From Thermoplasmata archaeon (GTDB taxonomy: Archaea > Thermoplasmatota > Thermoplasmata > Lutacidiplasmatales > UBA184), in assembly GCA_021801925.1 (NCBI GenBank), contig JAKABH010000004.1, positions 1-61,677 of the forward strand: a DNA stretch of 61,677 nt. The letters are read 5' to 3'. The notes under the pieces were generated by a model that was not told the origin of the DNA, made no database searches, and was given only the letters and a program-made list of their open reading frames with translations. The position numbers and the translations under genes are program-made. This document shows, in pieces, positions 1,050 through 61,673 of this stretch. Numbering within the stretch: position 1 is the first letter of the stretch; every line of letters starts with the position of its first letter.

Positions 1050-1213
1050 CGGGGGGTCCTCGGCCCGGTGGCCTTAGCGCTTGCGCGCCCCCTCGACCGA
1101 AGGTTCAAGAGGCGGCGACCCGTGGTACGGACGTCCGACGGTCTTTGGACCGGGCGGCGAGGTCGCTCGTGAGGTCGCATGCCGAGGCCGGTCCTCCTTC
1201 GGGGTCGCCGCGG

Positions 1214-3658
1214 ATGTCGACCGGCAACGCCGACCTCGATCGCATGCTCGAGGGGGGCCTCCTGCCCCGCCGGCCCTACCTCGTCGTCGGCGCGTCCGGG
1301 ACCGGCAAGTCGACGCTCGCCCTCCAGTTCCTCTGCGACGGGGTCCGGCGCGGGGAGCGGGTGCTGTTCGTGACCCTGGAGGAGCCCCCGAACGAGATCG
1401 TCTGGAACCACCGGGCGCTCCTCCCCGAGCTGGCGGAGATCGACGTCTTCGATGCGATCCCCGACGTGATGCGGTACGAGCGCACCCCGTTCAAGGACAT
1501 CGCCTCGGTCCGCGCGGCGGTCCCGTTCGGGAGCATCGACCCGACGATCCGCCGTACCCCCGAGCTGACGAGCGTCGAGGTGACGATCTCCGCGCTGGAA
1601 CAGATGCTCCGCACCGAGGTCCTCCGGAAGGGGTACCGCCGGGTCGTCGTCGACTCGCTCACCGCCCTCCAGTACTTCTGCATGAAGGGGTACGACCCGG
1701 CCCTCGGCGCCCAGTCGTTCCTCCGCTTCCTTTCGGATCTCCGCGTGACGACCCTGCTGACCGTCGAGTCGCCCCTCGAGGACTTCGAGACTCCCGAGCA
1801 GATGCTCGCCCGGGGGGAGATCCGCCTGTTCCGGTGGGAGGCGGACGGGGTGACCGTGCGGGCGATCGGGGTCGAGAAGTTCCGCGGGAGCTCCCACGAC
1901 GTGCGGCTCCACCCCTACCGGATCGGCCCGCACGGGATCGACATCAATCTCGGGGCCACGATCTCCCGCGACACGCAGGCCGTCGTCGCCGAGCTCGCGG
2001 TCGGCCCGACCGACACCGGCGAGCCGCCGCTGCACGAGCCGAGCCCGGTCGAGCTGCTGGAGATCGAACTGCGCGACCTCCAGACGATCGGCCGCGGCCT
2101 TGGGCCGATCCGAGCGGCCGTCGAGGCCGCGCTCGCCGCCGCCCGCGCCGGGGAGCTCGGCGAGGCGGCGCACCACCTGGCCCGGGCGCTGGCCGAGGCC
2201 TCCGTCCCTCCGGACGAGAGCGCGATGCTCCACCACACGCTCCCCCCTCCGGGGGAGGCGGCCCTGGCGCGGATCCTGGCCCGCGCGGAGGCGACGCGGG
2301 TGGGGATCGCCCCGGCCCGGCTGCCCGAGCCGCCGATCCTCGCGGCCCAGCTGATGCGGCTGCTCGCGGAGGCCCTCCCGGCCGCTCCCGGCCCCGAGAC
2401 GCTGCCCCCGGAGGGGCCCACCTCGCTCCCGACCTCCCCGTCCGAGGCGACCCCCTCCCCGGCCCCGGAGACGTTCGGCGAGCCGGCCGCCGCCGTGTTG
2501 GCCTCCGCGGCGCCCGTCGAGGATGGGCGAGATCCGCACGGCGCTCGGCGTGTCGACGGAAACCTCCCGCCCGGCTCTCTCCCTCCCGAAACCCCCGCCG
2601 AGCCGCCGACCGTTGCGACGGAGGAGCTCCCGGGCGCCATCGCCTCCCCGCTCCGCCCGCTCCCCTCCGCGGCCGCGCCGTCCGGACCGGCGGCGGCGGT
2701 CCCCGGGATCGGGGATGCCGCCGGCCCCGGCCCGTCGGGCGGGCCGACCCCGACGAACGGCGGTCCGAGCACGGGGGGGGCGTTCTCTCCCGTCTCCCAC
2801 CCGACGCCGCCCTTCGGCACCCCCGCGCCGCCGTCGACTCCCGCCCCCGCCGACGTCGCGTCTCCCCGGATCCCGACGACGGGGCCGACCGCCTCCGGGC
2901 CGGAGGAGCCCCCTTCGCCAACAAGTTCCGGAGCGGAGCGTCCGGCCCCGCCTCCGATGCCGACAGGTACATCCCCCGCCTACGAACCGCCGACCCCCGC
3001 TCCCCCCGCTCCCGAGGAGTCGGCGTCGAGCGACGAGGCGCGCCCCGGCCTCCGCCCGGCGGCACCGGTCGAGGGGACCGCCGCGGCGGTGGCGGGGCTT
3101 CCGCTCCCGGCCGCCTCCTTAGGTCCCCCGGGCCGGCCCGTGGAGTCGGCGCCGTCGGCGGGCCCCGCCCGGTTCCCGCCGCACCCAGCCCCGTCGGCCG
3201 CCGCTCCGGATCTCCTGCATCTCCCCCTCCCCGCCCGCCCATCCTTGCCGGTCGTGCCGCGATGGGACGAGGCCGGCGGCGTCGCCGCCGCTCCGGGGTC
3301 CGACGGCCCTCGAACCTCCTCCCGCTCGGTGGCCCCCGAAGCCGAGCCGTCGGCGCCGCGGAAGCGAAAGCGGGCCGCCGGCCCGCCCCGCCGGCGCGGC
3401 CCGGCCGTCGCCGGTACCGGGGAGGCGACGTCGGTCGAACCGGACCCATCGTCGGGCCCGGCGCCGGCGAAGGCGAGGCGGAAGTACGTACGCAAGAAGA
3501 AGGCGCCGCCCGTGCTGGCGGCGACCCCCGGCCCCGCTCCCGAGGGGGGGACCGCCGCCCCGCCGCCGGACGGGCCCGAACCGGCGCCGGCCGGACCGAT
3601 CCCCGCGCCCGCTGATCCGGCGGATGTTCCGTCGCGGGATCCCCCGGAGGCGACGTGA
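1214..3658 (+). CDS. KaiC/RadA-like RecA-superfamily ATPase with ~480-aa Pro/Ala-rich low-complexity C-terminal tail
   Basis: MSTGNADLDRMLEGGLLPRRPYLVVGASGTGKSTLALQFL (Walker A), RRVVVDSLTALQYF (Walker B); ORF 1145..3658, ATG at 1214 preferred; stop overlaps the next start (GTGA). Confidence 0.85.
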   Translation: MSTGNADLDRMLEGGLLPRRPYLVVGASGTGKSTLALQFLCDGVRRGERVLFVTLEEPPNEIVWNHRALLPELAEIDVFDAIPDVMRYERTPFKDIASVRAAVPFGSIDPTIRRTPELTSVEVTISALEQMLRTEVLRKGYRRVVVDSLTALQYFCMKGYDPALGAQSFLRFLSDLRVTTLLTVESPLEDFETPEQMLARGEIRLFRWEADGVTVRAIGVEKFRGSSHDVRLHPYRIGPHGIDINLGATISRDTQAVVAELAVGPTDTGEPPLHEPSPVELLEIELRDLQTIGRGLGPIRAAVEAALAAARAGELGEAAHHLARALAEASVPPDESAMLHHTLPPPGEAALARILARAEATRVGIAPARLPEPPILAAQLMRLLAEALPAAPGPETLPPEGPTSLPTSPSEATPSPAPETFGEPAAAVLASAAPVEDGRDPHGARRVDGNLPPGSLPPETPAEPPTVATEELPGAIASPLRPLPSAAAPSGPAAAVPGIGDAAGPGPSGGPTPTNGGPSTGGAFSPVSHPTPPFGTPAPPSTPAPADVASPRIPTTGPTASGPEEPPSPTSSGAERPAPPPMPTGTSPAYEPPTPAPPAPEESASSDEARPGLRPAAPVEGTAAAVAGLPLPAASLGPPGRPVESAPSAGPARFPPHPAPSAAAPDLLHLPLPARPSLPVVPRWDEAGGVAAAPGSDGPRTSSRSVAPEAEPSAPRKRKRAAGPPRRRGPAVAGTGEATSVEPDPSSGPAPAKARRKYVRKKKAPPVLAATPGPAPEGGTAAPPPDGPEPAPAGPIPAPADPADVPSRDPPEAT

Positions 3659-4437
3659 GCGCGCCGATCCCCACCCCGACCGTGGAGCGGGTCGCCACGG
3701 GGATCCCCGGCCTCGACCGGATGCTCGGCGGCGGGCTCGTCGGGGGGCGGCCCTACCTCCTGACCGGGGGGACCGGGAGCGGGAAATCGCTGGTCGCGCT
3801 CACCTTTCTCCTGGAAGGGATCCGCCGCGGGGAGGAGGTCCTCCTGGTGGCGGTCGACGAGCCGCCGGGGGAGATCATGGAGAACGTGCGAACGTTCGGC
3901 TGGGATCTCTCGGCGGTCCACACGCTCGACGCGAACCCGGGAGTGAAGGCGTTCCGCCGCACCGCGGCGGTCCAGGAGATCCGCGCCCTCAACGACCTCA
4001 AGACGATGCGCGACATCGCGCAGGAGGGCAAGCGAACCTCCGACCCGGAGGATATCGCGATCCAGGGGATCCAGCTCAAGCTGCGCCAGCAGATGGACGG
4101 GGGTCGCTACACCCGGGTCGTCGTCGACTCGATGACCTCGATCCGGCGGTTTGCGGTGAAGTCGTCCGCCGACCCCCAGGCGGAACGGACCGAGATCCAG
4201 TCGCTGCTGCGGTTCCTTTCCGAGTCCGGCGTCACGACGCTGATCACCGCGACCCCGAGCAACCCGGCGCTCCTCACGCCCGAGGAGATCCTCACCCGCG
4301 GGGAGATCCTCCTGACCCGCAAGTGGATCGGCGACCGGTCCGTCCGTCAGGTGAAGATCGTGCGGATGCGCGGCTGCGCCCACGACCCCGAGCGGCGGCC
4401 GTTCGTCATCGGCCCCCGCGGCGTCGTGGTCGGGTAG
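3655..4437 (+). CDS. KaiC-like RecA-superfamily ATPase
   Basis: GIPGLDRMLGGGLVGGRPYLLTGGTGSGKSLVALTFLLEG; TRVVVDSMTSIRRF; GTG start overlapping upstream TGA. Confidence 0.88.
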   Translation: MSAPIPTPTVERVATGIPGLDRMLGGGLVGGRPYLLTGGTGSGKSLVALTFLLEGIRRGEEVLLVAVDEPPGEIMENVRTFGWDLSAVHTLDANPGVKAFRRTAAVQEIRALNDLKTMRDIAQEGKRTSDPEDIAIQGIQLKLRQQMDGGRYTRVVVDSMTSIRRFAVKSSADPQAERTEIQSLLRFLSESGVTTLITATPSNPALLTPEEILTRGEILLTRKWIGDRSVRQVKIVRMRGCAHDPERRPFVIGPRGVVVG

Positions 4438-4530: not shown

Positions 4531-5790
4531 CTACGGGAGGACCGACGGGTCCCGGGCCAGGAGCCGACCGGCCGCCTCCGCGTAGCGGGGGTCGGCGAAG
4601 ACCGTGATCGCCGAATCGGCCGGGGCGCGCGTCGCGAGGAGGAGCCAGAGGCTGGGCTCGCGGAACGGGAACGTGGTGCGGCCGTCGGCGTACAGGGCGA
4701 TCTCTCCCCACTCCCGGGCGGGATCGCCGCGCGGCGCCAGGCTCGCTAGGTCGAGCAGGACCGTTCCCGGCGGGGCCCCGAGGCGCGCGGCGAGATCGTC
4801 CTCCAGCGCCCGGCGCCGGGGCGGGTCGTCGAGCAGCCGCTGCCAGCGACGGAGCTCGCCCCGCGCCGGCTTCGGCCAGCCGAAGACGCGTTTGTAGAGG
4901 CGACGGGCGAGGATGCCTTCGACGAGCGCCGTCGTCCGCCCCCCCGCCGCCGGCAGCCGGACGAGCCATTCCGCATCGGTCCATCCGAACGTCGCGCGGG
5001 CCGTCTCGGGGAACCCCGGGGAGCGCTCGAGGGCGGCCTGGGCCATCGCCTCGGCCGACCGCACGGTCTTGTGGTAGTAGACGGTCTGGTACATGAGGGC
5101 CCGACCGACCAGGAACCCCTCGACCGCGCCCCGGCCCTTCTCCGCGAAGACGACCCGCGGCCCCGCCCGCCGCAGGGTCTGGAGCAGCCGGACCGCATCG
5201 ATCGCTCCGTGGGCGACCCCGGTGTAATGGGCGTCCCGCTGGAGGTAGTCGATGCGGTCCGCATCGACGGCGCCGTGGAGGAGACCGCCCCACCACCGCG
5301 GTCGCGCCTTCGCCCCCGCGGGATCGACCAGGTCCGCCACCTCGCGGGGCCGGAGACCGTGCCGCTCGAGGAGCCGCGGGATCTCGCCGGACGGGGCCGG
5401 CCCGATCCCGAGGATGCGGGCCCGCGACAGCCGCTCGTGGCCGTGCCCGAGCGCCTCCTCCATCGACGCGTCGAACGTGTGGGAGAACGGACCGTGTCCG
5501 AGATCGTGCAGCAGCGCGGCGGTCCGCAGGAGGGCGGCGGCGTTCGCGTCGAGCCCGAGCGTCTCGGCCATCTGACCGGCGACCCAGTACGTGCCGAGCG
5601 AATGCTCGAGCCGGGTGTGGTTCGCCCCCGGAAAGACGAGGTGGGCGAAGCCGGTCTGGCGGATCCCCCACAGCCGCTGGAACTCGGGGGTGTTCACGAG
5701 CGCGAGGGCCGCCTCGTCGAGCACGACCGTCCCGTGCACGGGATCGAAGATCGTCTTGCGGGGAGCGGCGACGCGGGCGGCGCGGGACAC
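4531..5790 (-). CDS. HD-superfamily phosphohydrolase (dGTPase/SAMHD1-like)
   Basis: IFDPVHGTVVLDEAALALVNTPEFQRLWGIRQTGFAHLVFPGANHTRLEHSLGTYWVAGQM...LLHDLGHGPFSHTFD; HD motif. Confidence 0.9.
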   Translation of the reverse strand: MSRAARVAAPRKTIFDPVHGTVVLDEAALALVNTPEFQRLWGIRQTGFAHLVFPGANHTRLEHSLGTYWVAGQMAETLGLDANAAALLRTAALLHDLGHGPFSHTFDASMEEALGHGHERLSRARILGIGPAPSGEIPRLLERHGLRPREVADLVDPAGAKARPRWWGGLLHGAVDADRIDYLQRDAHYTGVAHGAIDAVRLLQTLRRAGPRVVFAEKGRGAVEGFLVGRALMYQTVYYHKTVRSAEAMAQAALERSPGFPETARATFGWTDAEWLVRLPAAGGRTTALVEGILARRLYKRVFGWPKPARGELRRWQRLLDDPPRRRALEDDLAARLGAPPGTVLLDLASLAPRGDPAREWGEIALYADGRTTFPFREPSLWLLLATRAPADSAITVFADPRYAEAAGRLLARDPSVLP

Positions 5791-5900: not shown

Positions 5901-8900
5901 ATGTCCTCGCCGGCGAGCGACGGCGCCGCACCTTCGCCTCCGGCGGCCCGGTCCCTCGACGACCTGCGCCGGGGCTACCGGGAGGCCGCGAGCGCCGAAG
6001 CCTCCCCCGACCGCGAGCAGTACGTCTCCCTGCTGAAGCGGTTCCTGGCCGACGCGGAGGCCCGGGCCGACGCGCTCCCGCCGGTCGGCGAGGAGTTCGG
6101 GCCGATGCTCGACGAGACGGCGATGGCGTTCTATCGCGCCGGGCTACCGGCGCTCGCCCGACGGGCCGTCGATCTCGGCCTCGCGGCCGACCCCGGCTCC
6201 GTCCCGCTCCTCCACCACAAGGCGCTCGTGCTCCTCGCCCAGAACGACGATCTCCCCGAGGTCGTCTCCCTCGTCGACCGCGCCCTCGTCGCGAGCCCCC
6301 ACGACCGGGCGCTGTGGGGGACGAAGGGCGATGCGCTCCGCCTGCTCGAGCGACCCCGCGAGGCGGTCGAGGCCTACCTCGCCGCGCAGCAGCTCGACCC
6401 CGATTCGACGCAGTACGTCGACCGGGCCCTCAAGGTCGCTCCGAACGATCCGACGGCGCTCCGCGTCAAGCTCGACCTTGCCCGCTCCTCCGGGGGCGAT
6501 GCCGGTGCGCTGCAGGCGGCCGAGGAGCTGCTCAAGGGATCGCCGAACGACCCCGAACTGCTCGGCGCGCGGGCGCGCCTGCTCGAGGGACTCGGCCGCC
6601 CGGCCGACGCCCTCGAGGCGCTGGACGCCGCGCGGGCCAACGGCTTCGCGGAGTCGACCGATCCCGCGCTCCGGATCCGGCTGCTGTTCGAGCTCGGCCG
6701 CGACGCGGACGGGACCGTCGCCGCCCGGCAGCTCACCGAGGCCGCGGCGCCGCCCAGCCCCGCGGCGCTCGCGGAGATCGCCCGGCGGACGGCCGAGAAG
6801 GCCCCCGAGGTGGCGCTGCGCGCGCGGGAACGGCTCGCCGAGGCGGAGCCGAGGAATCTTCAGAACCTTAAGGAGCTGCGGGCGCTCGCCGTCCGCCTCG
6901 ACCAGCCGGAGGTCGCCCTGGCGGCGTGCCGCACGCTCCTCGAGGTCCAGCCGGACCACCTGGAGGCGCTGGCGGGCGTCGCCGAGCTCGAGGCGGCCGG
7001 GGGCCGGATCGACGAGGCGATTGCCGCCTACCGCACGATCGGCCGCCTGCAGCCTCAGGCCGTCGCGGAACTCCGGAGGGGGCTCGAGCTCGCCCGGCGG
7101 GAGCACCGCGACGCCGCGGTCCTCGAGTTCGCGACGGCGATCCTCGCCGCCGAGCCGACCGACGTCGCCGCCCAGGTCGAGCTCGCGCGGGCGCGGGCCG
7201 ACTCGGGTGACGCCGCGGGGGCCCTTGCGCTGTACGACGCGCTACTCGCCGCGCATCCGGGGCAGCTGCCGTACCTCCTCGAGAAGCGGCAGGTCCTCGC
7301 CCAGAGCCGCGACCCGGCCCAGCTGGCCCCGGTGCTCGACGAGCTGTTCCACCTCGACCCGACCCGCACCGACGTCGCCGTGGAGCGGGGGAACCTCTAC
7401 CTCGGCCTCGCCTACGATCGCCCGACCGGCTCGGACGAGCGGGAGCGGGCGGCGCGGACGGCGCTCGTCGCCTACGAGCGGGCCTCGGGCGACGCCGAGG
7501 CGGCCCCGGTCGCCGAGCTCGGGATCGCCCGCGCCTCCCGGCTCGTCGGCGACCACGACCGGGCGGTCCGGTCGTACACGGCCTTCCTCGATCGTCCCGA
7601 GAACCACTCCCGCCCCGACGTCCTGAAGGAGCTCGGGAGCACCCTGCTGGAGGTCGGCCGCTACGGGGCAGCCCTCGACGTCTACCTGCGCGCGATCCGC
7701 GCCGGCGGCGACGATCCCGAGCTCCGATGGGGCGCCGTCGACGCCCTCGACCACCTGAACGAGGGGGCCCGGGCGCTGCCGATCCTCGAGTCGTTGCTGA
7801 AGGAGGAGCCGGAGAACCCGCTCTACCTGCGTCGGCTCGGCCAGGTGCTGTTGCACCTCGGCCGGCGGGAGGAGGCGATGCGGGCGCTGCAGCGCGCCGT
7901 CGCCGGTGCCGGCTCGGACGCCCACGCCTACTTCGAGGTCGCCGAGGCGCTGCGGGCCCAGGGGGCCTACGCCGACGCCGTCGACTACTTCAAGCGGGGT
8001 CTCGCCGTCGAGCCGAAGAGCCCCCACGGCCGCGTCGCGCTCGCCGAGACGCTGACCCAGACGGGCCAGTACACCGAGGCGATCCAGATCACGGACCCGC
8101 TGCTGAAGGAGGACCCGAACAACGTCGCCGGCTGGAAGGTCCGCGCCGACGCGTGGCGCGCCCTCGGTCGACCCGCCGAGGTCCTCTACTCGCTCCAGGC
8201 GATCCTGCTCTTAGAGCCGGACCACGCCCCGTCGCTCCTCGAGAAGTACCGGCTCCACCACGACGCCGGCGAGACGCGGGAGGCCTACGAGGTGCTCACC
8301 CGGCTGCTCGCCACCGCCGCCCCCGAGGCCCAGGACGCGAACCTCCACCTCGAGCGCGGCGATCTCGCAGCGCGGCTCGGCCTCACCGAGGAGGCGAACC
8401 GGTCGTACGAACGGGCCGCCGAGATCGATCCCACGCTCCGGGCCGAGATCGCGATGCGCCGCGCCCGGCTCCGGCTCACCGCCGGCCGCCCCGACCTCGC
8501 CCTCGAGGTCCTCGAACCCGGCGCGGGCGACGGGCCGGCCGCGCCGCCCACGACCGGCCTGTTGCTGCTCCGCGCCGAGATCCTGACGGCCCTCGAGCGG
8601 CCGTCGGAGGCCCGCGCGGTCTTCGAGGAGGTGCTCGGACGGGACCCGAAGTCCCCCGTCGCGCTCGCGGGGGTCGGCCGCACGATGCTCGACGAGGGCC
8701 GCCACGCGGAGGCGGCCGACTACCTGCGCCGCGCGCTAGGGAAGGGTCCGGCGCACGAGCCGACGTACCTCCTGCTCGCCGAGGCCGAGAGCGGCGCCGG
8801 CCATCTCGACCGGGCGGAGGAGGCGCTCCGCCAGGGAACGGCCGCCCTTCCGAAGAGCACCGCCCTCTGGGCGAGGCTCGGCGAGGTCGGCATCGCCCGG

Positions 8901-10550
8901 CAGAACTGGGCGGGCGCCGCCACCGCCTACCAGCATGCGCTCGCCCTCGCCCCGGGGTCGGCGCCGACGCTGCTCCGGGCGGGGTTCGTCGCCGAGCGGC
9001 TCGAGCATCCGCACGAGGCGCTCGCCTTCTACGAGCGGGCGACGGAATGCGAGCCGCAGAACCCGCAGGCGTGGACGAGCCGCGGGCTCGCCGAGCTGGC
9101 GACCGGCCGGCCGGCCGACGCCGGAACGTCGTTCGATCGCGCCCTCGCCCTCGATTCCGACTTCGCCGCGGCGAAGGAGGGACGCAAGCTCGCCGTCGAG
9201 AAGACCCGGGACCAGCAGGTGCAGCGGTACGGGCGGGAGGCGCTCCTGCTCGAGGCCCGTCTCAACCGGCCGGTGACGAAGAACGACCTGTTCGTGACGC
9301 TCCACGTCCCGTTCGAGTTCCTGGAGCCGGTCCTGTCGGCGATCGGCCGGAGCCCGCCGATCGCCCTCGACCGCCTCTCCGCCGAGGAGGTCCGCGAGCT
9401 CGAGAACGGATCGTACCAGCTCATCGCCGCCGCGCTCGAGCGGCGCCCGCCGGGGATCGAGCACCGAGGCCTCACGCTCGCCGACGTCGCCGTCCTTTCG
9501 CCGCCGACCGCCACCCTCGAGCAGCTCCAGCGCCTCTTCGGCTATCTGCGCGCCGTGCTCGAGGCCGACCTGCGGCCGGAGAACCTGGAGCTCGCCCCCG
9601 ATGTCGAGGAGCTCGCCCGGCGGGCGCTGGTCCTCCCGGCCGCGCAGCGGACGCTCTTCCAGCTGGTGCGGACGCTGCGTGTCGGGATCTACAAGGCGCG
9701 GCTCATCAAGGTCGTCGAGGAAGCCGGCGCCACGATCCGCGCCCCCCTCCCGACGCTCGACCTCGCCGCCTACGGCCCCGAGTTCCGCGGGGGGCCCGGG
9801 GCCGCGCCTCCCGCGGGCGGCGCGAGTGCCCCCGACGACGGGGAGCGGTTCTTTGCGCCCGAGAACGTGCCGGCGACGGCCGCGGCCCGGCCGGTCCCGG
9901 GCCCGGCCCCGACCGGCCCCGGCCCGTCGGCCGCCCCCGCCGGCGTGGCGCGGTGTGTCGGCTGCGGAGGGATCGCCTCCGTCCGCCACGTCTGCGGTGC
10001 CCCCCTCTGCCAGCATTGCGCCGGCGAGTTCCCCCGCTGCCCAAAGTGCGGGGATCCGGTCGGACCGGCCTCGGTCGTACCCCTCGCCGGGGGGGCGGCC
10101 CGGCCCCCCGCCGGCGGTGCCCCGGCGCCGCCGGCGCGGGCCGTCGGGGGGGTGAAATCGTTCCTCGGCCGGGGGAAGGAGAAGGGCGGAGGGAAGGCGC
10201 CCCCGGCCCACGCCCCCGTCGCCCACGCTCCCCCCGCCCCGGCCCACGCTCCCATGGCCCACTCGCCCGCCGCCCCGGCCCCCTCACCGCCGCCCCGGAC
10301 CGGCGCTCTCCCCTCCTCCAGCGGCGGGGCAGCGTCCGCGAACCGGGCCGGCGTGCCGTCGGCGAAGCCCCCGATCCCGCCGTCGTCCGCCGGTCCGCGA
10401 CGGAACCCGCCGCCGGCCGCGGTGCCCCCGGGCGGGACCGACGCCAAGGCGCCCCGTCCCGGGGCGACGGCGGTTCCCGAGCCACCCGCTCCGCCTCCGT
10501 CGGCGCCCCGGCCCCGGCGGGAGAAGATCGACGACGAACCGCGCCTGTGA
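5901..10550 (+). CDS. Giant tetratricopeptide-repeat protein with C-terminal Cys-rich zinc-binding module and Pro/Ala-rich tail
   Basis: 1549 aa of degenerate TPR units; C-terminus CVGCGGIASVRHVCGAPLCQHCAGEFPRCPKCGDP then AHAPxAHAP-type low complexity; TATA-like gatttatccc about 30 nt upstream. Confidence 0.88.
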   Translation: MSSPASDGAAPSPPAARSLDDLRRGYREAASAEASPDREQYVSLLKRFLADAEARADALPPVGEEFGPMLDETAMAFYRAGLPALARRAVDLGLAADPGSVPLLHHKALVLLAQNDDLPEVVSLVDRALVASPHDRALWGTKGDALRLLERPREAVEAYLAAQQLDPDSTQYVDRALKVAPNDPTALRVKLDLARSSGGDAGALQAAEELLKGSPNDPELLGARARLLEGLGRPADALEALDAARANGFAESTDPALRIRLLFELGRDADGTVAARQLTEAAAPPSPAALAEIARRTAEKAPEVALRARERLAEAEPRNLQNLKELRALAVRLDQPEVALAACRTLLEVQPDHLEALAGVAELEAAGGRIDEAIAAYRTIGRLQPQAVAELRRGLELARREHRDAAVLEFATAILAAEPTDVAAQVELARARADSGDAAGALALYDALLAAHPGQLPYLLEKRQVLAQSRDPAQLAPVLDELFHLDPTRTDVAVERGNLYLGLAYDRPTGSDERERAARTALVAYERASGDAEAAPVAELGIARASRLVGDHDRAVRSYTAFLDRPENHSRPDVLKELGSTLLEVGRYGAALDVYLRAIRAGGDDPELRWGAVDALDHLNEGARALPILESLLKEEPENPLYLRRLGQVLLHLGRREEAMRALQRAVAGAGSDAHAYFEVAEALRAQGAYADAVDYFKRGLAVEPKSPHGRVALAETLTQTGQYTEAIQITDPLLKEDPNNVAGWKVRADAWRALGRPAEVLYSLQAILLLEPDHAPSLLEKYRLHHDAGETREAYEVLTRLLATAAPEAQDANLHLERGDLAARLGLTEEANRSYERAAEIDPTLRAEIAMRRARLRLTAGRPDLALEVLEPGAGDGPAAPPTTGLLLLRAEILTALERPSEARAVFEEVLGRDPKSPVALAGVGRTMLDEGRHAEAADYLRRALGKGPAHEPTYLLLAEAESGAGHLDRAEEALRQGTAALPKSTALWARLGEVGIARQNWAGAATAYQHALALAPGSAPTLLRAGFVAERLEHPHEALAFYERATECEPQNPQAWTSRGLAELATGRPADAGTSFDRALALDSDFAAAKEGRKLAVEKTRDQQVQRYGREALLLEARLNRPVTKNDLFVTLHVPFEFLEPVLSAIGRSPPIALDRLSAEEVRELENGSYQLIAAALERRPPGIEHRGLTLADVAVLSPPTATLEQLQRLFGYLRAVLEADLRPENLELAPDVEELARRALVLPAAQRTLFQLVRTLRVGIYKARLIKVVEEAGATIRAPLPTLDLAAYGPEFRGGPGAAPPAGGASAPDDGERFFAPENVPATAAARPVPGPAPTGPGPSAAPAGVARCVGCGGIASVRHVCGAPLCQHCAGEFPRCPKCGDPVGPASVVPLAGGAARPPAGGAPAPPARAVGGVKSFLGRGKEKGGGKAPPAHAPVAHAPPAPAHAPMAHSPAAPAPSPPPRTGALPSSSGGAASANRAGVPSAKPPIPPSSAGPRRNPPPAAVPPGGTDAKAPRPGATAVPEPPAPPPSAPRPRREKIDDEPRL

Positions 10551-10613
10551 AGCGCCCCTCCGCCCGCCCGCTCACCCTAATATAAGGGGGGTTTCCTTTT
10601 CGAGCGAGGGTAG

Positions 10614-11171
10614 ATGTCGACCGCGAATTCCGGGGGCGCCGGGGCCCGTCAGGGTGCGAGCGCCTACGTCATCACGGCGCTCTTGCTGGTCGCGGCCGCG
10701 CTCCTGTTCGTCGGCATCTATCTGGCGCTGCCGGCCGGACAGCACTTCGATGCGCTGCTCTGGATCGGCGCGCTTGCCCTCGTCTTCGCGCTGGCGAGCT
10801 ACCTGCTCGGCTCCGTCTCCCGCGACCCGGCCGCCCAACGGTCGGTCGCCTACGGGTTCATGGGGATGGGGTTCGCCACGCTCTTCCTCACGGTGGGGCT
10901 CGGACCGACCTACGGCGTCGAGAGCCAGCTCGGCGAGATCGAGGGACTCATTGTCCTCCTCCTCCTGGTCGTCGTCGCGGTCGCCGGCATCGCCTGGCGG
11001 GCCCGCAGCCGCGTCCAGGACCAGGCGCGCGAGGCCGAGCAGGTCGCCTGGCGCGACCAGGCGTCCGCGCCGTCCGCCTTCTCCTACGCGGCCGCGAACG
11101 GCCCGAACGTTCCGGCCCAGGTCCAGCCTCCTTCGCCGCCGGGCGGCGCCCCGCCCCCGCGGAGTCCCTAG
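10614..11171 (+). CDS. Small membrane protein with several hydrophobic segments and Pro-rich cytosolic tail
   Basis: AYVITALLLVAAALLFVGIYLAL; LLWIGALALVFALASYLLG; LIVLLLLVVVAVAGIAW; TATA box taatataagg at about 10577-10586. Confidence 0.75.
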   Translation: MSTANSGGAGARQGASAYVITALLLVAAALLFVGIYLALPAGQHFDALLWIGALALVFALASYLLGSVSRDPAAQRSVAYGFMGMGFATLFLTVGLGPTYGVESQLGEIEGLIVLLLLVVVAVAGIAWRARSRVQDQAREAEQVAWRDQASAPSAFSYAAANGPNVPAQVQPPSPPGGAPPPRSP

Positions 11172-11172
11172 C

Positions 11173-11853
11173 ATGGCGACCGCCCCGATGACCCCCGGCG
11201 CCCCGCCCCCCGTGAACTGCCCGAAGTGCGGCCAACCGGTCCCCCCCGGCGCTCGCTTCTGCGCCGCCTGCGGCGCGTCGCTCGCCCCGGCCACGGCGCC
11301 GGCCGCCCCCGGCGCCGCCCCGGTCGACCTCCGACAATCGGTCGACCAGAGCCGCGGCACGCTGAAGCGGCTCCAGCTGCTCGTCCCGGGGTTCCGGGCC
11401 TATCGACAGGGCGAGGACCTCCGGGCGGCCGACAGCCTGCTCCGCCGCCAGGTCGCCGACACGCTTCGTTCCGCGCGGGCGACCCTCGAGAACGCGCGCA
11501 GCGCGCTCGTCGGGGCGGGCCAGTTCGCGGCGCTCACCGACCTCGCCCCCCTGCTCGCCGACCTGCAGCGGCTCGAGGGGGAGATCCGCCACGCCGAGCA
11601 GGGCTACTCGGGGATCTCCCCGACGCTCCGCATCAATCCCCAGCAGCTCGACCGGCTCTACGAGTACGACTTCGGTTTTGCCCAGGCGGGCGATCGGCTC
11701 GCCCAGACCGTGGCGCCGCTCCCGACCGCGGCGGTGACGCCCGGGGCGCCGGGGGTGGCGACGATCGTCGCGACCGCCCGGACCGAGGTCGCCCAGCTCG
11801 AGACGGCGTTCAAGGCCCGACTCCAGGCGATCGAGGGGGTCCGGGTCGGCTGA
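11173..11853 (+). CDS. Zinc-ribbon protein with helical C-terminal region
   Basis: MATAPMTPGAPPPVNCPKCGQPVPPGARFCAACGASLAPA followed by helix-rich region; ATG at 11173. Confidence 0.75.
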   Translation: MATAPMTPGAPPPVNCPKCGQPVPPGARFCAACGASLAPATAPAAPGAAPVDLRQSVDQSRGTLKRLQLLVPGFRAYRQGEDLRAADSLLRRQVADTLRSARATLENARSALVGAGQFAALTDLAPLLADLQRLEGEIRHAEQGYSGISPTLRINPQQLDRLYEYDFGFAQAGDRLAQTVAPLPTAAVTPGAPGVATIVATARTEVAQLETAFKARLQAIEGVRVG

Positions 11854-11870
11854 TCCCGGGGTGACGTTCC

Positions 11871-13046
11871 ATGGTGACCAACAACCCGATCCCGCCGAAG
11901 GGCGGCAGTCTGCTCGGGGCGACGACGATCAACTGGGAGGACGTCTACAAGGGACCGAACGTGATGTGGCGCGTCCCCCGGAACATCCGGTGGGGCGACA
12001 ACATCGTCGTCCGGGAGGACGAGACGGCGGTCTTCTACCGGGACGGGAAGGTGCTCGCCTACCTCGACCGTCCCGACCGGTACGCCCTCACCTCGCTCAA
12101 CGCCCGCCTGGTCGGCGGCCTGGTCCAGGCGCTCTCGGGAGTCCGGCAGGAAGCGGAGGTCTACTATCTCCAGCGCCGCATCCTGGACGGCAAGTTCGGC
12201 TCGAGCGAGCCGTACGTCTTCCGGGACCCCGACTTCGGCCTCGTGAACCTCCGGGTCTTCGGCGCCTACCGCTGGCGGGTCGGCGCGCCGGACAACTTCA
12301 TCAACCAGTTCGTCGGGACGTTCGGCGCGGCGACGACCGCCGATGTCGAGGCCCGGCTCCGGGACCAGATGGTCCTGCTCGTCTACAACGTCCTCGGCAA
12401 GATGAAGGAGCAGGGGATGCGGGTCACCGACCTGGCCTCCAACCTCTCCACGATCGAGCAGGCCGTCCTCGGCTCCGCGCCCCAGCATTTCGGTCAGTTC
12501 GGCGTCGAGCTGAACCAGCTCCAGGGGCTGTCGATCAACCTCCCCGACGAGGTCCAGAAGGCGATCAACACCCGTTCGGAGATGGGCGTCCTCGGCGTCA
12601 ACTACATGCAGTACCAGGCCGGACAGGCGCTCACCACGGCGGCGGCGAACCCGTCCGGCGGGGCCGGGGCGACCGTCGGGGCGGGGGTCGGGCTCGGCGC
12701 CGGCCTCGGGATGGGCTACGGCATGGTCGGTCAGATGCAGGGGATGTACGCCCAGGGCGGCCCCTCGACCCCGTGCAGCCGCTGCGGGGCGCTGATCCCG
12801 GCCGGCGTCCGGTTCTGCCCGTCGTGCGGTGCCCCCGTCGGAGGGGCGCCGGCGGCGGGCCCGGCCGGCGGCGGGGGCACCCCGTGCCCGAAGTGCGGCC
12901 AGGTCGCCCCGCCGGGCACCAAATTCTGTCCGAACTGCGGCGCCTCGATGGCACCGCCGCCGCCCCGGCGCTGCCCGAAGTGCAACGCCGAGGTGGCGGG
13001 CGGGGCGAAGTTCTGCCCGAACTGCGGCGCGGCGGTCCCCCCGTAG
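11871..13046 (+). CDS. SPFH/band-7-like (YdjI/virion-core-like) protein with three C-terminal zinc ribbons
   Basis: INWEDVYKGPNVMWRVPRNIRWGDNIVVREDETAVFYRDGKVLAYLDRPDRYALT...; C-terminal CSRCGALIPAGVRFCPSCG, CPKCGQVAPPGTKFCPNCG, CPKCNAEVAGGAKFCPNCG. Confidence 0.82.
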   Translation: MVTNNPIPPKGGSLLGATTINWEDVYKGPNVMWRVPRNIRWGDNIVVREDETAVFYRDGKVLAYLDRPDRYALTSLNARLVGGLVQALSGVRQEAEVYYLQRRILDGKFGSSEPYVFRDPDFGLVNLRVFGAYRWRVGAPDNFINQFVGTFGAATTADVEARLRDQMVLLVYNVLGKMKEQGMRVTDLASNLSTIEQAVLGSAPQHFGQFGVELNQLQGLSINLPDEVQKAINTRSEMGVLGVNYMQYQAGQALTTAAANPSGGAGATVGAGVGLGAGLGMGYGMVGQMQGMYAQGGPSTPCSRCGALIPAGVRFCPSCGAPVGGAPAAGPAGGGGTPCPKCGQVAPPGTKFCPNCGASMAPPPPRRCPKCNAEVAGGAKFCPNCGAAVPP

Positions 13047-13064
13047 GGGAGCCGGGAGCCCTCC

Positions 13065-14057
13065 ATGTTCTGCCCGAAGTGCGGCACGGCGCTCCCCGAC
13101 GGCGCGGCGTTCTGCCTCCGCTGCGGCGCCCCGATCCCCGGCGCCGCGCCCGGCGGCGGCTCCCCGGGGGGCGCGTCACCGCCCGCGGCCGCCGCGGCCG
13201 GTTCGTCGCCCGCCCCGACCGGCCCCCAATCGCTGAAGTGCCCCTCGTGCGGCGGCCCGCTCCACCCCGAATTCGGGGAGATGGTCATCACCTGCGACTA
13301 CTGCGGCAGCTCGGTAACCCTCGGCGGGAACGGCTGGAAGGAGATCAACAAGCACACGATGCTGCCGCTCAAGATCGCGGACGCGGCGGCGGCGCTCGCG
13401 GTGGTGCGCGCGCACGTCGACGCCGGGTTCTTCCACCGGAAGGACTTCGAGGAGTCGAAGGTGGGCGACCCCACGCTGCGGTTCGTCCCGTTCTGGATCG
13501 TGCCGACCTCCGCGTCGACGACGTACCAGTACCAGGCGGTCGCGACGACCGTCGGCGCCACCGTCGGCACGATCGCGGCGGCGGAGCTGCTCGGCTCGGC
13601 GCTCGGCGGCGAACGGGGCGGCGGCGGGTTCGTCGCGATGCCGATCCTCGCCGGTCCGGTGGTGAACCCCACGCGGTCGGAGACGATCTCGGGCCAGTTC
13701 GAGTATCCCGTGATCGCCGTGAAGTCGATGAACGCCTACCAGCCGAAGGATTACGCCTTCGGGCTCGGCGACCGGACGTTCTTCGACAAGAAGGCGATCC
13801 CCGGCGGCACGCCGGTGCTCAACGGGGACGTCGGCGAGGACGCCGCCCAGCACGCGGCGAAGGCGTTCGTCGAACAGCTCCAGTCGGAGACGGCGCACAA
13901 GAAGCACCACATGGTCTCGAAGCTCCAGACGAGCGTCGAGCTCTCGGAGGGCGAACTCCTCCACGCGCCGGTCTGGACGTTCGTCCTCGAGCGGAAGGGC
14001 CAGCGGACGACCGTGCTGGTCGACGCCCACCAGGGACGGGTCATCCAGACGTTCTAG
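13065..14057 (+). CDS. Zinc-ribbon protein (two Cys4 ribbons) with conserved C-terminal domain, YdjG-like
   Basis: MFCPKCGTALPDGAAFCLRCGAPIPG; CPSCGGPLHPEFGEMVITCDYCGSSVTL...EINKHTMLPLKI...LRFVPFWIVPTS. Confidence 0.75.
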   Translation: MFCPKCGTALPDGAAFCLRCGAPIPGAAPGGGSPGGASPPAAAAAGSSPAPTGPQSLKCPSCGGPLHPEFGEMVITCDYCGSSVTLGGNGWKEINKHTMLPLKIADAAAALAVVRAHVDAGFFHRKDFEESKVGDPTLRFVPFWIVPTSASTTYQYQAVATTVGATVGTIAAAELLGSALGGERGGGGFVAMPILAGPVVNPTRSETISGQFEYPVIAVKSMNAYQPKDYAFGLGDRTFFDKKAIPGGTPVLNGDVGEDAAQHAAKAFVEQLQSETAHKKHHMVSKLQTSVELSEGELLHAPVWTFVLERKGQRTTVLVDAHQGRVIQTF

Positions 14058-14112
14058 GACCCCTCCGCCGGCCCGTACGGGTTTAAGAGCGGTGCGGCCA
14101 CTACGCGGAGGC

Positions 14113-17100
14113 ATGGGGTCCCCGACGGGGGCGGCGGCGATCGCGGTCGGGCTGCTCCTCGTGGTCGGGGCCGTGCTCGGGAGCGCCGCCGGCGTTGGGT
14201 CCGCCGCGCCGCCCACGCGCGCCGCCGCCCCGCGGGCGGCCGACCTGGGGCCGTCGAGCCTTGCCCGGGCGGAGCCCGGATCTTCCGCCCAGCCCCACCC
14301 ATACCTCGACGCGGGGCACGTGGCGCGCACGGTGTTCGTGAACTACAACGCCTCGATCCCGGGCGGCTTCGCGTCGACGGTCGCCGACTGGTACCTCGGG
14401 CCGGGCGCCTACGTCCCGTCGACCGGACGGCTCTGGCTTCCGAGCCTGGACGAACCTGTGGAGCAACCGATGCCGCCCTCGGCGCCCGCGGTGTTGTTCG
14501 ATCCGACGACCAACTCCTTCACCGGGGTCGTCCCGGCCCTCTCGAACGTCTCCGATCTCGTCTACGATCCGCAGAACGGCTTCCTCTACGCTGCCCAGCC
14601 GTTCACCGACTCCGTCGGCGTCTTCAACCCGTCGACCGGCACCTGGGCCGCGCCCCCGATCCCCGTGGGACACTACCCGTATCGGATGGTTTTGGATGCG
14701 CAGGCCGATTTGCTGTTCGTGGCGAATCTGCAGTCGGACAACATCACGGCGGTGAACACCAGTACGCAGAGCGTGTATGGGTCGGGTATCTCGCTGTTTG
14801 CCGCTCCCATTGACCTCGCCTACGACAATGCGAACAACTCGCTGTTCGTCGCCTATCTCAACAGCTCGTCGTTGTCTATCTTCAACGCCAGCACCTATGC
14901 GCTGCTGGCCGCGCCGGTCTTGCCTGGTGATGCTGGCGGAATCGCCATCGCATCTCAGGCAGATACTGTTGCGGTCTCAAGCCCCCTAAAAGGATCCCTC
15001 ACACTCCTGAACGCGAGCAGCTACCTTACGATTTTCGGATTCCTTTCTGTAGGAAAGGGTGTTGGTGCGGTAACCTCAGTCGATAGCGGCACCGAGTTCC
15101 TGCTCGCGAACAGCAGTGGATCCGACCTTCGAATCGTAAACGCTACGTCCGGCGCGGTTTCCTCCGCTTCGATAACCGTGGGACAGGGGCCGACCTCGTT
15201 CGACCGGATCGGGGGAACGACCTATGCTTGGGCGACCGGGAGCCATGTCCTAACCGCGGTCTGGTCCCTCAACGCTAGTCAGTCGACGCTTTCCCCCAGT
15301 TTGACCGCAGAGCCCACCGCGGTCGCATGGGACCCGTCGATCAACAGCACCGTTGTCGGCGATACGGATGGATCCTCCCTCTCGTTCGTCGCGGCCCAGA
15401 ACTTGACGCCGACCGCGGCCGCAATGGCGCTCCCCTCTGCCCCCGTGTCGTTGGCCCCGGTTCAGGGCAGTTCCGAACTGTTGGCGGGCCTCGTAAGGGG
15501 GTTGGCGGAAGTCAACCTCTCCACGAGATCGATCCTCAACATCTCGACCACGGGCGGCGCAGACCAGGCGGTGCTGTACGACCCGGCAACCGGGCTCGTT
15601 TGGACGCTCAACGCGGGGCAGGGCCTCTTGGCCTATCGCGTGTCGAACCTGAGCCTCGCCTTCTCGGTGGGGATCGGAGGTCTGTCGGGGATCGAGTCGA
15701 TGGCGCTCGACCCGACCACCGATCAGCTGTTCGTTCCGGTCAACGACTCCGGCGTGCCCTCGATCGCGATCGTGGACGCCGCGAACGGAACGGTCTCGAA
15801 CGGAGACGCGGCCTCCGTCCCCGGGGTGACATCGGTCGCCTTCGATCCGGCGGACAACACCGTCTACGCTCTCGGGGCGAACCTCTCCCTCCTCAACGCC
15901 ACGACCGGCCTCCCCTTGCCGCGGTCGATCCTCCTCGCGCCGCATGGGATCTCGGGGACGATCGTCTACGACTCGGCCCGGGAGGCGCTCTACGCCACCA
16001 CCTTCTCCTCCCCCGGGGAGGTGGGCACGGTGACCGCCATCGACGGGCGGTCCGTTCCGGCATCGTACAGCGGAGCGTCGACGATCCCGGTCGGGCAGAG
16101 CCCTAGCTCCTTGACGGTCGTCCCCGGTCCCGGGAACGCCACGGGCTCGGAGATATGGGTGGCGAACCTGCAGTCCGGCACGCTCTCGGTCATCGCCAAC
16201 TCGCCGCCCCGGATTCTTGGGTTCTCGGCCGCCTCCCCGGTGATCGACCTCGGCGAGCGGGCTTCCTTCACCGTGTCGGCCACGGGCGGCGCCGGCCCGT
16301 TGCGCTTTGCCTATTCCGGTCTCCCTCCGGGATGCAGCTCGGCCGATGCGCCCGTGCTCTCGTGCACTCCCTTGACGACCGGGGCGTTCAACGTGACTGT
16401 CGTGGTGACGGATTCCCTCGGTGGGAATGCCACCGCGGAGACCGCGTTCACCGTCGGGACCGCGCTGTCGGTGGTGGGAACGTTCGGGGTCCAGACGTTC
16501 CCCGTCGTCGATGTCGGCTACCCGTTCTCGATGCTGGCGGCGGGCCAGGGCGGTGTGGCCCCGTACACGTACGTTTGGTCGTTCGGGGACGGAACCAACG
16601 GGACGGGCGCGGGCTCCTCCCACCTCTACACCGCGGTCGGAGATTACGTGCTGACGGTCACGGTGACCGATTCCGTCCGGGCGACCGTCTCCGCCTCCTG
16701 GGCAGTGACGGTCGTCCCCGACCCGTCGATCGCGATCGCAAGCTCCGCCTCCACGACCGACGTCGGCGTCCCGATCTCCCTCGCGGCGGCGATCGCTGGC
16801 GGCAGCGGGTCGAACGACACCGGGTTCTGGGATTTCGGGGACGGCACCACCTCCACGGGGTTCGAGGTGACCCACGCGTGGGGGGCGCCGGGCGTGTACA
16901 ATGTCTCCGCCACCTACGTCGACGGGATGGGGGTGACCGCCCATGCCACCACGCAGGTGCGGGTCAACGCCGCACCGACCGGGGAGTTCTCCGTCAGCGG
17001 GGGCACCGTCCAGCAACCCGCGGTGCCGGGGACGGTCTTCTACTACAACGCGACGATCGTGAACGGCACGGCGCCGTTCGTCATCACCTGGAACTTCGGG

Positions 17101-17430
17101 GACGGTACGTTCGCCACCGGCCCGAGGATCCTCCACTCCTACTCCGCCGCCGGGACCTACTCGGTGAACGTCAGCATCCGAGACGCCGCAGGGGCGCTAG
17201 TGAACGGGACCCTCAGCGTGACGGTCGATTCGCCGGCGCCTCCCAGCTCCACGGGAAACGTCCCGGGTGTCGCGTTCGACCTGGGCCTCTTCCTGGGGGT
17301 CGTGCTCGGCGTGGCGACGGGCGCCGTCCTCGTCTTTGCCGCGGATCACCGCCGTCGACGGCCGCCCGCGGCTCCCCCGACGGCGACGGCGCCGCCCCCG
17401 GCGCGCCCCGCGTGGACCGAGGAGCCGTAG
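14113..17430 (+). CDS. Secreted/surface-anchored protein: YVTN-like beta-propeller repeats, multiple PKD domains, C-terminal TM anchor
   Basis: N-terminal signal-like hydrophobic stretch; repeated YDPQNGFLYAAQPF / LDAQADLLFVANLQSDNITAVNT units; PKD motifs YVWSFGDGTNGTGAGSSHLYTAVGDYVLTVTVTD, GFWDFGDGTTSTGFEVTHAW; TM GLFLGVVLGVATGAVLVFAADHRRRR. Confidence 0.88.
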   Translation: MGSPTGAAAIAVGLLLVVGAVLGSAAGVGSAAPPTRAAAPRAADLGPSSLARAEPGSSAQPHPYLDAGHVARTVFVNYNASIPGGFASTVADWYLGPGAYVPSTGRLWLPSLDEPVEQPMPPSAPAVLFDPTTNSFTGVVPALSNVSDLVYDPQNGFLYAAQPFTDSVGVFNPSTGTWAAPPIPVGHYPYRMVLDAQADLLFVANLQSDNITAVNTSTQSVYGSGISLFAAPIDLAYDNANNSLFVAYLNSSSLSIFNASTYALLAAPVLPGDAGGIAIASQADTVAVSSPLKGSLTLLNASSYLTIFGFLSVGKGVGAVTSVDSGTEFLLANSSGSDLRIVNATSGAVSSASITVGQGPTSFDRIGGTTYAWATGSHVLTAVWSLNASQSTLSPSLTAEPTAVAWDPSINSTVVGDTDGSSLSFVAAQNLTPTAAAMALPSAPVSLAPVQGSSELLAGLVRGLAEVNLSTRSILNISTTGGADQAVLYDPATGLVWTLNAGQGLLAYRVSNLSLAFSVGIGGLSGIESMALDPTTDQLFVPVNDSGVPSIAIVDAANGTVSNGDAASVPGVTSVAFDPADNTVYALGANLSLLNATTGLPLPRSILLAPHGISGTIVYDSAREALYATTFSSPGEVGTVTAIDGRSVPASYSGASTIPVGQSPSSLTVVPGPGNATGSEIWVANLQSGTLSVIANSPPRILGFSAASPVIDLGERASFTVSATGGAGPLRFAYSGLPPGCSSADAPVLSCTPLTTGAFNVTVVVTDSLGGNATAETAFTVGTALSVVGTFGVQTFPVVDVGYPFSMLAAGQGGVAPYTYVWSFGDGTNGTGAGSSHLYTAVGDYVLTVTVTDSVRATVSASWAVTVVPDPSIAIASSASTTDVGVPISLAAAIAGGSGSNDTGFWDFGDGTTSTGFEVTHAWGAPGVYNVSATYVDGMGVTAHATTQVRVNAAPTGEFSVSGGTVQQPAVPGTVFYYNATIVNGTAPFVITWNFGDGTFATGPRILHSYSAAGTYSVNVSIRDAAGALVNGTLSVTVDSPAPPSSTGNVPGVAFDLGLFLGVVLGVATGAVLVFAADHRRRRPPAAPPTATAPPPARPAWTEEP

Positions 17431-60260: not shown

Positions 60261-61673
60261 ATGGCGCAGAGCACCTCGGACGTTACTCCTCTCGACTACA
60301 CCCGGTACGACTTCAAGAATCCCGAGACGTACCGCCTGCGCATCGCGAAGGGCCTGACCCGCGAGGTCGTCGAGCAGATCTCCGACTTCAAGCACGAGCC
60401 CGACTGGATGCGGCAGTACCGCCTGCGCGCCTACGAGCATTTCGTGGAGCGGCCGATGCCCGACTGGGGGCCGAGCCTCGCGGAGCTCGACTTCGACTCG
60501 TACACGTACTACGCGAACCCGCTCCTCGAGGGAGAGACGAAGCGGAGCTGGGAGGATCTCCCCGCGGACATCAAGAACACGTTCGACAAGCTCGGGATCC
60601 CGAAGGCGGAGCGGGAGTTCTTCGGCGGCGTCGGGGCCCAGTACGACAGCGGGACCGTCTACCACAAGATCCGCGAGGACCTCCAGGCGAAGGGGGTCCT
60701 GTTTACCGATACCGACACGGCGGTCAAGGAGCATCCCGAGATCGTCCGGAAGTACTTCGGGAAGATCGTCCCGTACAACGACAACAAGTTCTCCGCGCTC
60801 AACAGCGCCGTCTGGTCGGGCGGGAGCTTCGTCTACGTCCCGCCGGGGGTCGACGTCGGGATCCCGCTCCAGGCCTACTTCCGCATCAACGCGCGGAACG
60901 TCGGGCAGTTCGAGCGGACGCTCATCATCGCCGACAAGGGGGCGAAGGTCCACTACGTCGAGGGGTGCACCGCCCCGATCTACTCCACCGACTCCCTGCA
61001 CGCGGCGGTCGTGGAGGTCGTCGCCGAACCGTACGCCAAGGTCCGCTACACGACCGTCCAGAACTGGTCGAAGAACGTCTACAACCTGGTGACGAAGCGG
61101 GCCGTCGCCTACGAGCAGTCGCTCGTCGAATGGGTCGACGGCAACATGGGGTCCAAGGTGACGATGAAGTACCCGTCGGTCTACCTGCGCGGCCGCGGGG
61201 CCCGGGCCGACATCCTGTCGGTCGCCTTCGCGAGCCAGGGGCAGATCATCGATTCGGGGGCCAAGGCGGTCCACTCCGCCCCGGACACGTCGAGCAAGAT
61301 CATCTCGAAGTCGATCGCGATCCGCGGCGGCCAGACGAGCTACCGGGGCCTCCTCCACGTCGCCCCGGGGGCGACCGGGGTGAAGGCGGCGGTCCGCTGC
61401 GACGCGCTGCTCCCGGACGAGCTCGGCCGCTCCGACACCTACCCGTACAACGAGATCCACGAGGAGGACGCGACCGTGACCCACGAGGCGGTCGTCGGGA
61501 AGATCGGCGAGGAGCAGATCTTCTACCTCATGAGCCGCGGGCTCAACGAGTCGGACGCGATCCACCTGATCCTGATGGGGTTCCTCGCGGAGTTCGCGAA
61601 GGAGCTGCCGGTCGACTACGCCCTCGAGCTGAACCGGCTGATCCAGCTCGAGATGACCGGTTCGGTCGGATAG
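60261..61673 (+). CDS. sufB: Fe-S assembly scaffold SufB
   Basis: YANPLLEGETKRSWEDLPADIKNTFDKLGIPKAEREFFGGVGAQYDSGTVYHKI; GGSFVYVPPGVDV; VEGCTAPIYSTDSLHAAVVEV; VRCDALL; VTHEAVVGKIGEEQIFYLMSRGL. Confidence 0.97.
   Translation: MAQSTSDVTPLDYTRYDFKNPETYRLRIAKGLTREVVEQISDFKHEPDWMRQYRLRAYEHFVERPMPDWGPSLAELDFDSYTYYANPLLEGETKRSWEDLPADIKNTFDKLGIPKAEREFFGGVGAQYDSGTVYHKIREDLQAKGVLFTDTDTAVKEHPEIVRKYFGKIVPYNDNKFSALNSAVWSGGSFVYVPPGVDVGIPLQAYFRINARNVGQFERTLIIADKGAKVHYVEGCTAPIYSTDSLHAAVVEVVAEPYAKVRYTTVQNWSKNVYNLVTKRAVAYEQSLVEWVDGNMGSKVTMKYPSVYLRGRGARADILSVAFASQGQIIDSGAKAVHSAPDTSSKIISKSIAIRGGQTSYRGLLHVAPGATGVKAAVRCDALLPDELGRSDTYPYNEIHEEDATVTHEAVVGKIGEEQIFYLMSRGLNESDAIHLILMGFLAEFAKELPVDYALELNRLIQLEMTGSVG

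Follow-up and report, generated by a model that had tools for sequence, protein, structure and literature searches.

The locus analyzed here is best read as two units: a four-gene operon, encoding a small four-transmembrane (4-TM) protein, a zinc-ribbon/helical protein (ZNH), an SPFH protein, and a YdjG-like ribbon protein, and a gene for a giant TPR/zinc protein that precedes it. The core of the operon is the ZNH-SPFH pair, which spans Thermoplasmata, Methanomicrobiales, Methanoperedens/ANME-2, DHVE2, and Methanomassiliicoccales. The operon is a variant of the SPFH-plus-ribbon arrangement with an uncharacterized, near-obligate partner, ZNH. We have high confidence in the parts of the locus and in their homologies.

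Five genes and their conservation

The window, by which we mean the whole 61,677-nucleotide stretch analyzed, comes from an assembly of 1.57 Mb (94.7% complete), and its DNA is ∼75% GC, a composition at which spurious open reading frames (ORFs) are frequent. We consider the five ORFs to be genes rather than chance ORFs because they match Pfam families (TPRs, Band_7_1, and ribbons) and because their sequence is kept in relatives. As the original prediction stated, all five are consecutive on the same strand and in the order given in Table 1; the intergenic gaps, from the TPR gene to the YdjG-like gene, are 63, 1, 17, and 18 nt. The description of the products was largely accurate as well. The small membrane protein has four TM segments by hydropathy (residues 19 to 37, 47 to 65, 78 to 96, and 109 to 127) and a Pro-rich tail, where a disordered tail had been predicted, and the YdjI-like SPFH protein matches Band_7_1 and carries three ribbons according to Pfam. 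The Cys-rich module ascribed to the TPR protein is present, with seven Cys and one conserved His, but it does not end the protein, as ∼165 disordered-looking residues follow it. By sequence, the potential zinc sites number about eight instead of the predicted seven or so Cys4 sites: two in the TPR module, one in ZNH, three in the SPFH protein, and two in the YdjG-like protein.

TABLE 1 Features of the locus, in window coordinates
Feature	Position	Strand	Basis or remarks
Giant TPR protein, 1549 aa	5901..10550	+	Pfam TPRs; helical region at about residues 1100-1300 found class-wide; Cys7His zinc module; disordered tail with the end -DDEPRL
Zinc module of TPR protein, residues 1352-1383	9954..10049	+	Motif in 14/14 family homologues
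C-terminal peptide DDEPRL of TPR protein	10530..10547	+	Conserved in family
TATA box TAATATAA, 36 nt 5' of membrane-protein start	10578..10585	+	AT-rich TATA-like 7-mer
Small membrane protein, 185 aa, 4 TM and Pro-rich tail	10614..11171	+	Hydropathy; family homologues
ZNH (zinc-ribbon/helical protein), 226 aa	11173..11853	+	N-terminal zinc ribbon and conserved four-helix domain
Helical domain of ZNH	11323..11850	+	8 invariant columns in 68 sequences; AF2 model
SPFH protein (Band_7_1, YdjI type), 391 aa	11871..13046	+	Pfam PF13421 and DZR; no TM
SPFH domain of SPFH protein	11970-12590	+	Family search of genome
Three C-terminal zinc ribbons of SPFH protein	about 12765-13034	+	Pfam DZR
YdjG-like ribbon protein, 330 aa	13065..14057	+	Two zinc ribbons; YxPFW and PVW motifs in the conserved domain

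Several other genes surround the locus. An HD-domain hydrolase (HD and HD_assoc_2; 4531-5790, minus strand) is divergent from the TPR gene and is a conserved neighbor in the window's family. Two consecutive genes resembling KaiC-type P-loop ATPases (1145-4437, plus strand; GIPGLDRMLGGG) also occur near the locus in several relatives, and a large PKD/beta-propeller protein (14092-17430, plus strand) lies directly 3' of the operon and is retained in some family members only. Near the contig end, an ORF at 60261-61673 (plus strand) is SufB-like by eye only.

The SPFH protein is present in 43 of 61 relatives. The neighborhood is conserved too: the five genes occur in order at 13 of the 29 loci that we examined, mostly in the window's family of Thermoplasmata, and several of the other loci are cut by contig ends. 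One metagenome-assembled genome carries SPFH sequences on three contigs, two of them partial, which is probably strain redundancy in the bin. In most family loci the TATA-like 7-mer is found 36 to 41 nt upstream of the 4-TM start, within DNA of 75% GC, and it is the probable promoter of the four genes encoding the 4-TM, ZNH, SPFH, and YdjG-like proteins.

The ZNH-SPFH pair and its companions

The helical domain of ZNH is marked by the motifs PG[FY]xxYRxxEDxRxAD... and RHAEQGY[ST]GIS and by an R near the C-terminus, and R34, D37, R41, and Y95 are invariant; the N-terminal zinc ribbon is mainly confined to the window's family. A profile of the helical domain matched 92 of 295 genomes of the phylum (53 of 131 genera), and a scan of named genomes with this profile yielded 199 confirmed loci. 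The best 80 of these 199 are archaeal by title, except for one titled only "bacterium," and their carriers comprise Methanocorpusculum, Methanomicrobium mobile, Methanoperedens BLZ2, ANME-2, DHVE2/Aciduliprofundum, Methanomassiliicoccales, and Thermoplasmata. SPFH is the next same-strand gene after ZNH in 114 of 123 loci, at a median distance of 2 nt and with 49 of the 114 pairs overlapping or abutting; because some places among the 123 were fetched twice, these are counts of loci and not of independent events. Four more divergent ZNH copies were also seen, one of which adjoins a short SPFH-like gene. Several genomes with such copies have a standard copy in addition, and a third type of system is possible.

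The only named family truly similar to the ZNH helical domain is NCBIfam NF047596 (the LIMLP_15305 family; E = 3e-10 for the window's protein and 1.5e-13 for a relative). At 40.4 bits for the window's protein and 51 bits for the relative, ZNH falls short of that family's cut-off of 210 and does not belong to it; the family is itself uncharacterized. The AF2 model of ZNH (pLDDT 87.8) has four long helices, and the protein is predicted to form a compact four-helix bundle; a comparison of the model with the PDB gave no significant fold match (best E = 0.12). In the members scanned, Pfam held no informative match for the ZNH domain, the small TM family, or the YdjG-type C-terminal domain, and we found no paper describing the ZNH-SPFH operon in the open-access literature.

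An all-helical protein beside an SPFH protein could suggest a link with ESCRT. Makarova et al. associated an SPFH-coiled-coil-zinc-ribbon protein with the Meth_adaptin ESCRT loci of methanogens (PMC10936438), so that SPFH and ESCRT are connected in some archaea and an archaeal SPFH protein with a zinc ribbon is common to those loci and ours. The SPFH and ribbon proteins might then serve an ESCRT-like sorting machine, with ZNH, which is all-helical in its model, as an ESCRT-III-like component. Unlike those loci, however, the window's relatives yielded no ESCRT-III: Snf7 did not exceed the cut-off in any of 61 genomes, in a search whose control was weak, as Sulfolobus itself matched only weakly. 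ZNH has no PspA or Snf7 match in Pfam, and its modeled bundle has no significant counterpart in the PDB. With neither a profile nor a fold match, we rejected ZNH as a PspA/ESCRT-III-like protein, and we give an ESCRT-like sorting role very little credence.

The pair is usually accompanied by a small TM protein and by one to three ribbon proteins. The latter belong to one superfamily (types of about 250, 340, and 197 aa) and lie downstream or upstream of ZNH-SPFH, while the small TM gene is directly upstream of ZNH in many other clades. Three clusters of small TM proteins form one family by hhalign, the cluster from a second operon type (type 2, described below) joining two of them. Homology of the window's 4-TM protein to the other small TM proteins was unsupported (hhalign, 1 to 11%), and therefore the case for a shared role is one of position and topology.

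The giant TPR protein and a second operon type

The original prediction took the giant TPR protein to be a partner of the SPFH protein, which did not hold up. Its unique region was found in 157 of 250 genomes of the class (54 of 82 genera), including five in which the search detected no SPFH protein. In other families the gene lies elsewhere in the genome, and at ten TPR loci from the class its surroundings are mostly unrelated. These observations, together with the conserved promoter-like element that separates the TPR gene from the operon, led us to reject it as a dedicated operon member. Given the unrelated surroundings across the class and the TATA-like box, the two are best seen as separate transcription units; the TPR gene is probably transcribed on its own, and read-through into the operon may occur.

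The giant protein has conserved features of its own. Each of the 14 family homologues keeps the Cys7His module, whose strict pattern recurs in 4 of 10 class homologues, with other Cys-rich variants visible. The C-terminus reads PRL after acidic residues in 15 of 15 family members and acidic-x-(R/Q)L in most class members (homologues L198 to L207), behind a divergent, disordered-looking tail, and this terminal peptide is a possible docking motif.

It is an evenly balanced question whether the giant TPR protein is unrelated to the SPFH operon and no more than its neighbor in the window's family, an arrangement compatible with a scaffold role for the other four genes. Its occurrence throughout the class, also where SPFH was not found, its mostly unshared neighbors elsewhere, and the operon's own promoter-like element all point that way. 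Adjacency and order are nevertheless kept in the window's family, and a second type of operon holds a different TPR-Cys protein. The best explanation is that the giant TPR/zinc protein became linked to the SPFH operon in the window's family.

The type-2 operon has the order TPR-Cys (about 308 aa), ribbon (about 514), 4-TM (about 125), ZNH (about 180), and SPFH (about 370), with the 4-TM gene uncalled in several loci. We saw it in one other family, probably Methanomethylophilaceae, as inferred from flanking genes resembling corrinoid methyltransferases, and in a genome of the window's own genus that is 61% complete, where it could reflect contamination or the presence of a second system. The two types share homologous SPFH proteins (hhalign, 100%). 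The type-2 TPR-Cys protein was not supported as a homologue of the window's giant TPR protein (hhalign, 3.9% on the C-terminal region), nor was the type-2 ribbon protein supported as a full-length homologue of the YdjG-like protein, since the ribbon alone aligns (90%). As homology between the two TPR-Cys proteins could not be demonstrated, a TPR-plus-zinc neighbor seems to have joined the operon twice.

Relation to bacterial YdjGHI and a candidate membrane scaffold

The window's SPFH protein matches Pfam Band_7_1 (PF13421) with an E value of 1.5e-34 and 120 bits against a cut-off of 24 (121.9 bits in the genome search), and B. subtilis also matches in the Band_7_1 family search; in the PDB, the protein has no close sequence relative. 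The prediction that it is related to YdjI was thus sustained by profile, as was the relation of its neighbor to YdjG. The archaeal YdjG-like profile matched bacterial SPFH-adjacent ribbon proteins (hhalign, 99.8%; E = 1.7e-27; 256 columns) in a comparison from which one bridging sequence was removed. The connection to YdjG runs through Enterococcus gallinarum, whose SPFH-ribbon-TPM order has the gene content of ydjI, ydjG, and ydjH. On plasmids of Comamonas, Paracoccus, Tsukamurella, and Vibrio, a homologue of the archaeal ribbon protein, of the TFIIB type, is likewise encoded directly 3' of SPFH. Unlike in the archaeal operon, ZNH is not among the annotated neighbors of these bacterial pairs, and a direct search of plasmids with ZNH and the window's ribbon protein found nothing. 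Archaeal SPFH orthologues normally carry two to three ribbons, and each of two ribbon-retaining bacterial copies that we inspected has two, so the ribbon content, which had been thought expanded, is not unusual.

The resemblance to B. subtilis pspA-ydjGHI comprises an SPFH (Band_7_1) protein that bears a C-terminal zinc ribbon and lacks a TM segment and, by profile, a YdjG-type ribbon protein. YdjG consists of two ribbons, a YpeB-related NTF2-like domain, and a TM segment (Ravi et al., PMC11237479). The window's YdjG-like protein differs in lacking the C-terminal TM segment, which is present in several related archaeal proteins, and the bacterial plasmid ribbon proteins, by eye, contain a TM-like hydrophobic stretch close to their C-termini. 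Its conserved domain gave a good model (pLDDT 86.9) with nothing in the PDB below an E value of 0.27, and an NTF2/YpeB-like fold was not recovered.

A further difference is that the sampled archaeal genomes lack PspA and TPM and that ZNH and the small 4-TM protein are present. PspA exceeded the cut-off in 0 of 61 genomes, the window's own included (28 of the 61 are at least 90% complete), compared to 9 of 14 control genomes. YdjH/TPM was absent from 60 of the 61, again including the window's, compared to matches in 8 of the 14 controls. In B. subtilis, YdjI anchors PspA (PMC8581546), and it could be supposed that the archaeal SPFH and ribbon proteins, as counterparts of YdjI and YdjG, tether to damaged membrane a PspA whose gene lies elsewhere, in a Psp-type envelope-stress system. 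In view of the missing PspA and TPM, the B. subtilis role is not simply transferable and the suggested stress function cannot be assumed. A Psp-type system is largely refuted for this clade, and we regard it as very unlikely; by the bacterial definition, the four-gene operon does not constitute a Psp system.

SPFH proteins have many roles, as in flotillins and HflKC, and membership in the family therefore leaves the function unfixed. That the locus is a conserved, membrane-anchored SPFH scaffold operon with ZNH as an adaptor is, in our judgment, about as probable as the opposite. The SPFH protein, without a TM segment, would assemble as an oligomeric ring or cage beneath the membrane, anchored by the small 4-TM protein. 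ZNH, made beside it from adjacent or overlapping genes, would link SPFH to its anchor as an obligate adaptor, and the zinc ribbons of the SPFH, ZNH, and YdjG-like proteins would serve as knobs for protein binding, either recruiting clients or keeping the assembly together. Like YdjI, such an assembly would organize the cytoplasmic membrane or protect it, but without PspA and TPM. We infer this complex, its anchoring, its oligomeric state, and its role from the Band_7_1 match, the ZNH-SPFH linkage, the small TM gene upstream, the YdjG-like profile match, and the TATA-like box. Hydropathy assigns four TM segments to the small membrane protein and none to the other three products of the operon in the window, and the divergent type-2 operon has five components of similar kinds. 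By analogy, B. subtilis YdjI is soluble and its recruitment to the membrane needs the membrane proteins YdjG and YdjH (PMC8581546), which also counts for a scaffold. The lack of demonstrable homology between the window's 4-TM protein and other small TM proteins counts against it.

A membrane-protein quality-control device is a further, unlikely alternative, in which an SPFH cage, ribbons, and TPR would recruit clients to a protease or chaperone in the manner of HflK/C-FtsH. HflKC is known to form cages around proteases, and a TPR-plus-zinc protein adjoins SPFH-ZNH in each of two operon types. However, among the neighbors of the 123 ZNH loci, whose minor clusters are mostly unannotated, no cluster of proteases or chaperones stood out as conserved.

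Returning to the scaffold, we advance more tentatively the idea of ZNH as a partner dedicated to SPFH, undescribed until now, which would take the place of PspA/TPM as the working or anchoring component, in a PspA-independent membrane-repair or microdomain system of methanogens and Thermoplasmata. The earlier description of the locus as an undescribed archaeal elaboration suits the combination of ZNH and the small TM protein better than it suits the TPR protein, which is class-wide, or the number of ribbons, which is standard. To our knowledge, little is known of membrane organization and repair in archaea without PspA. As carriers of the operon include cultivated methanogens (Methanocorpusculum parvum and Methanomicrobium mobile) besides uncultured Thermoplasmata, its role is testable, and names for the ZNH domain, for the family of small TM proteins, and for the C-terminal domain of the YdjG type would provide function-ready labels for proteins in many archaeal genomes.
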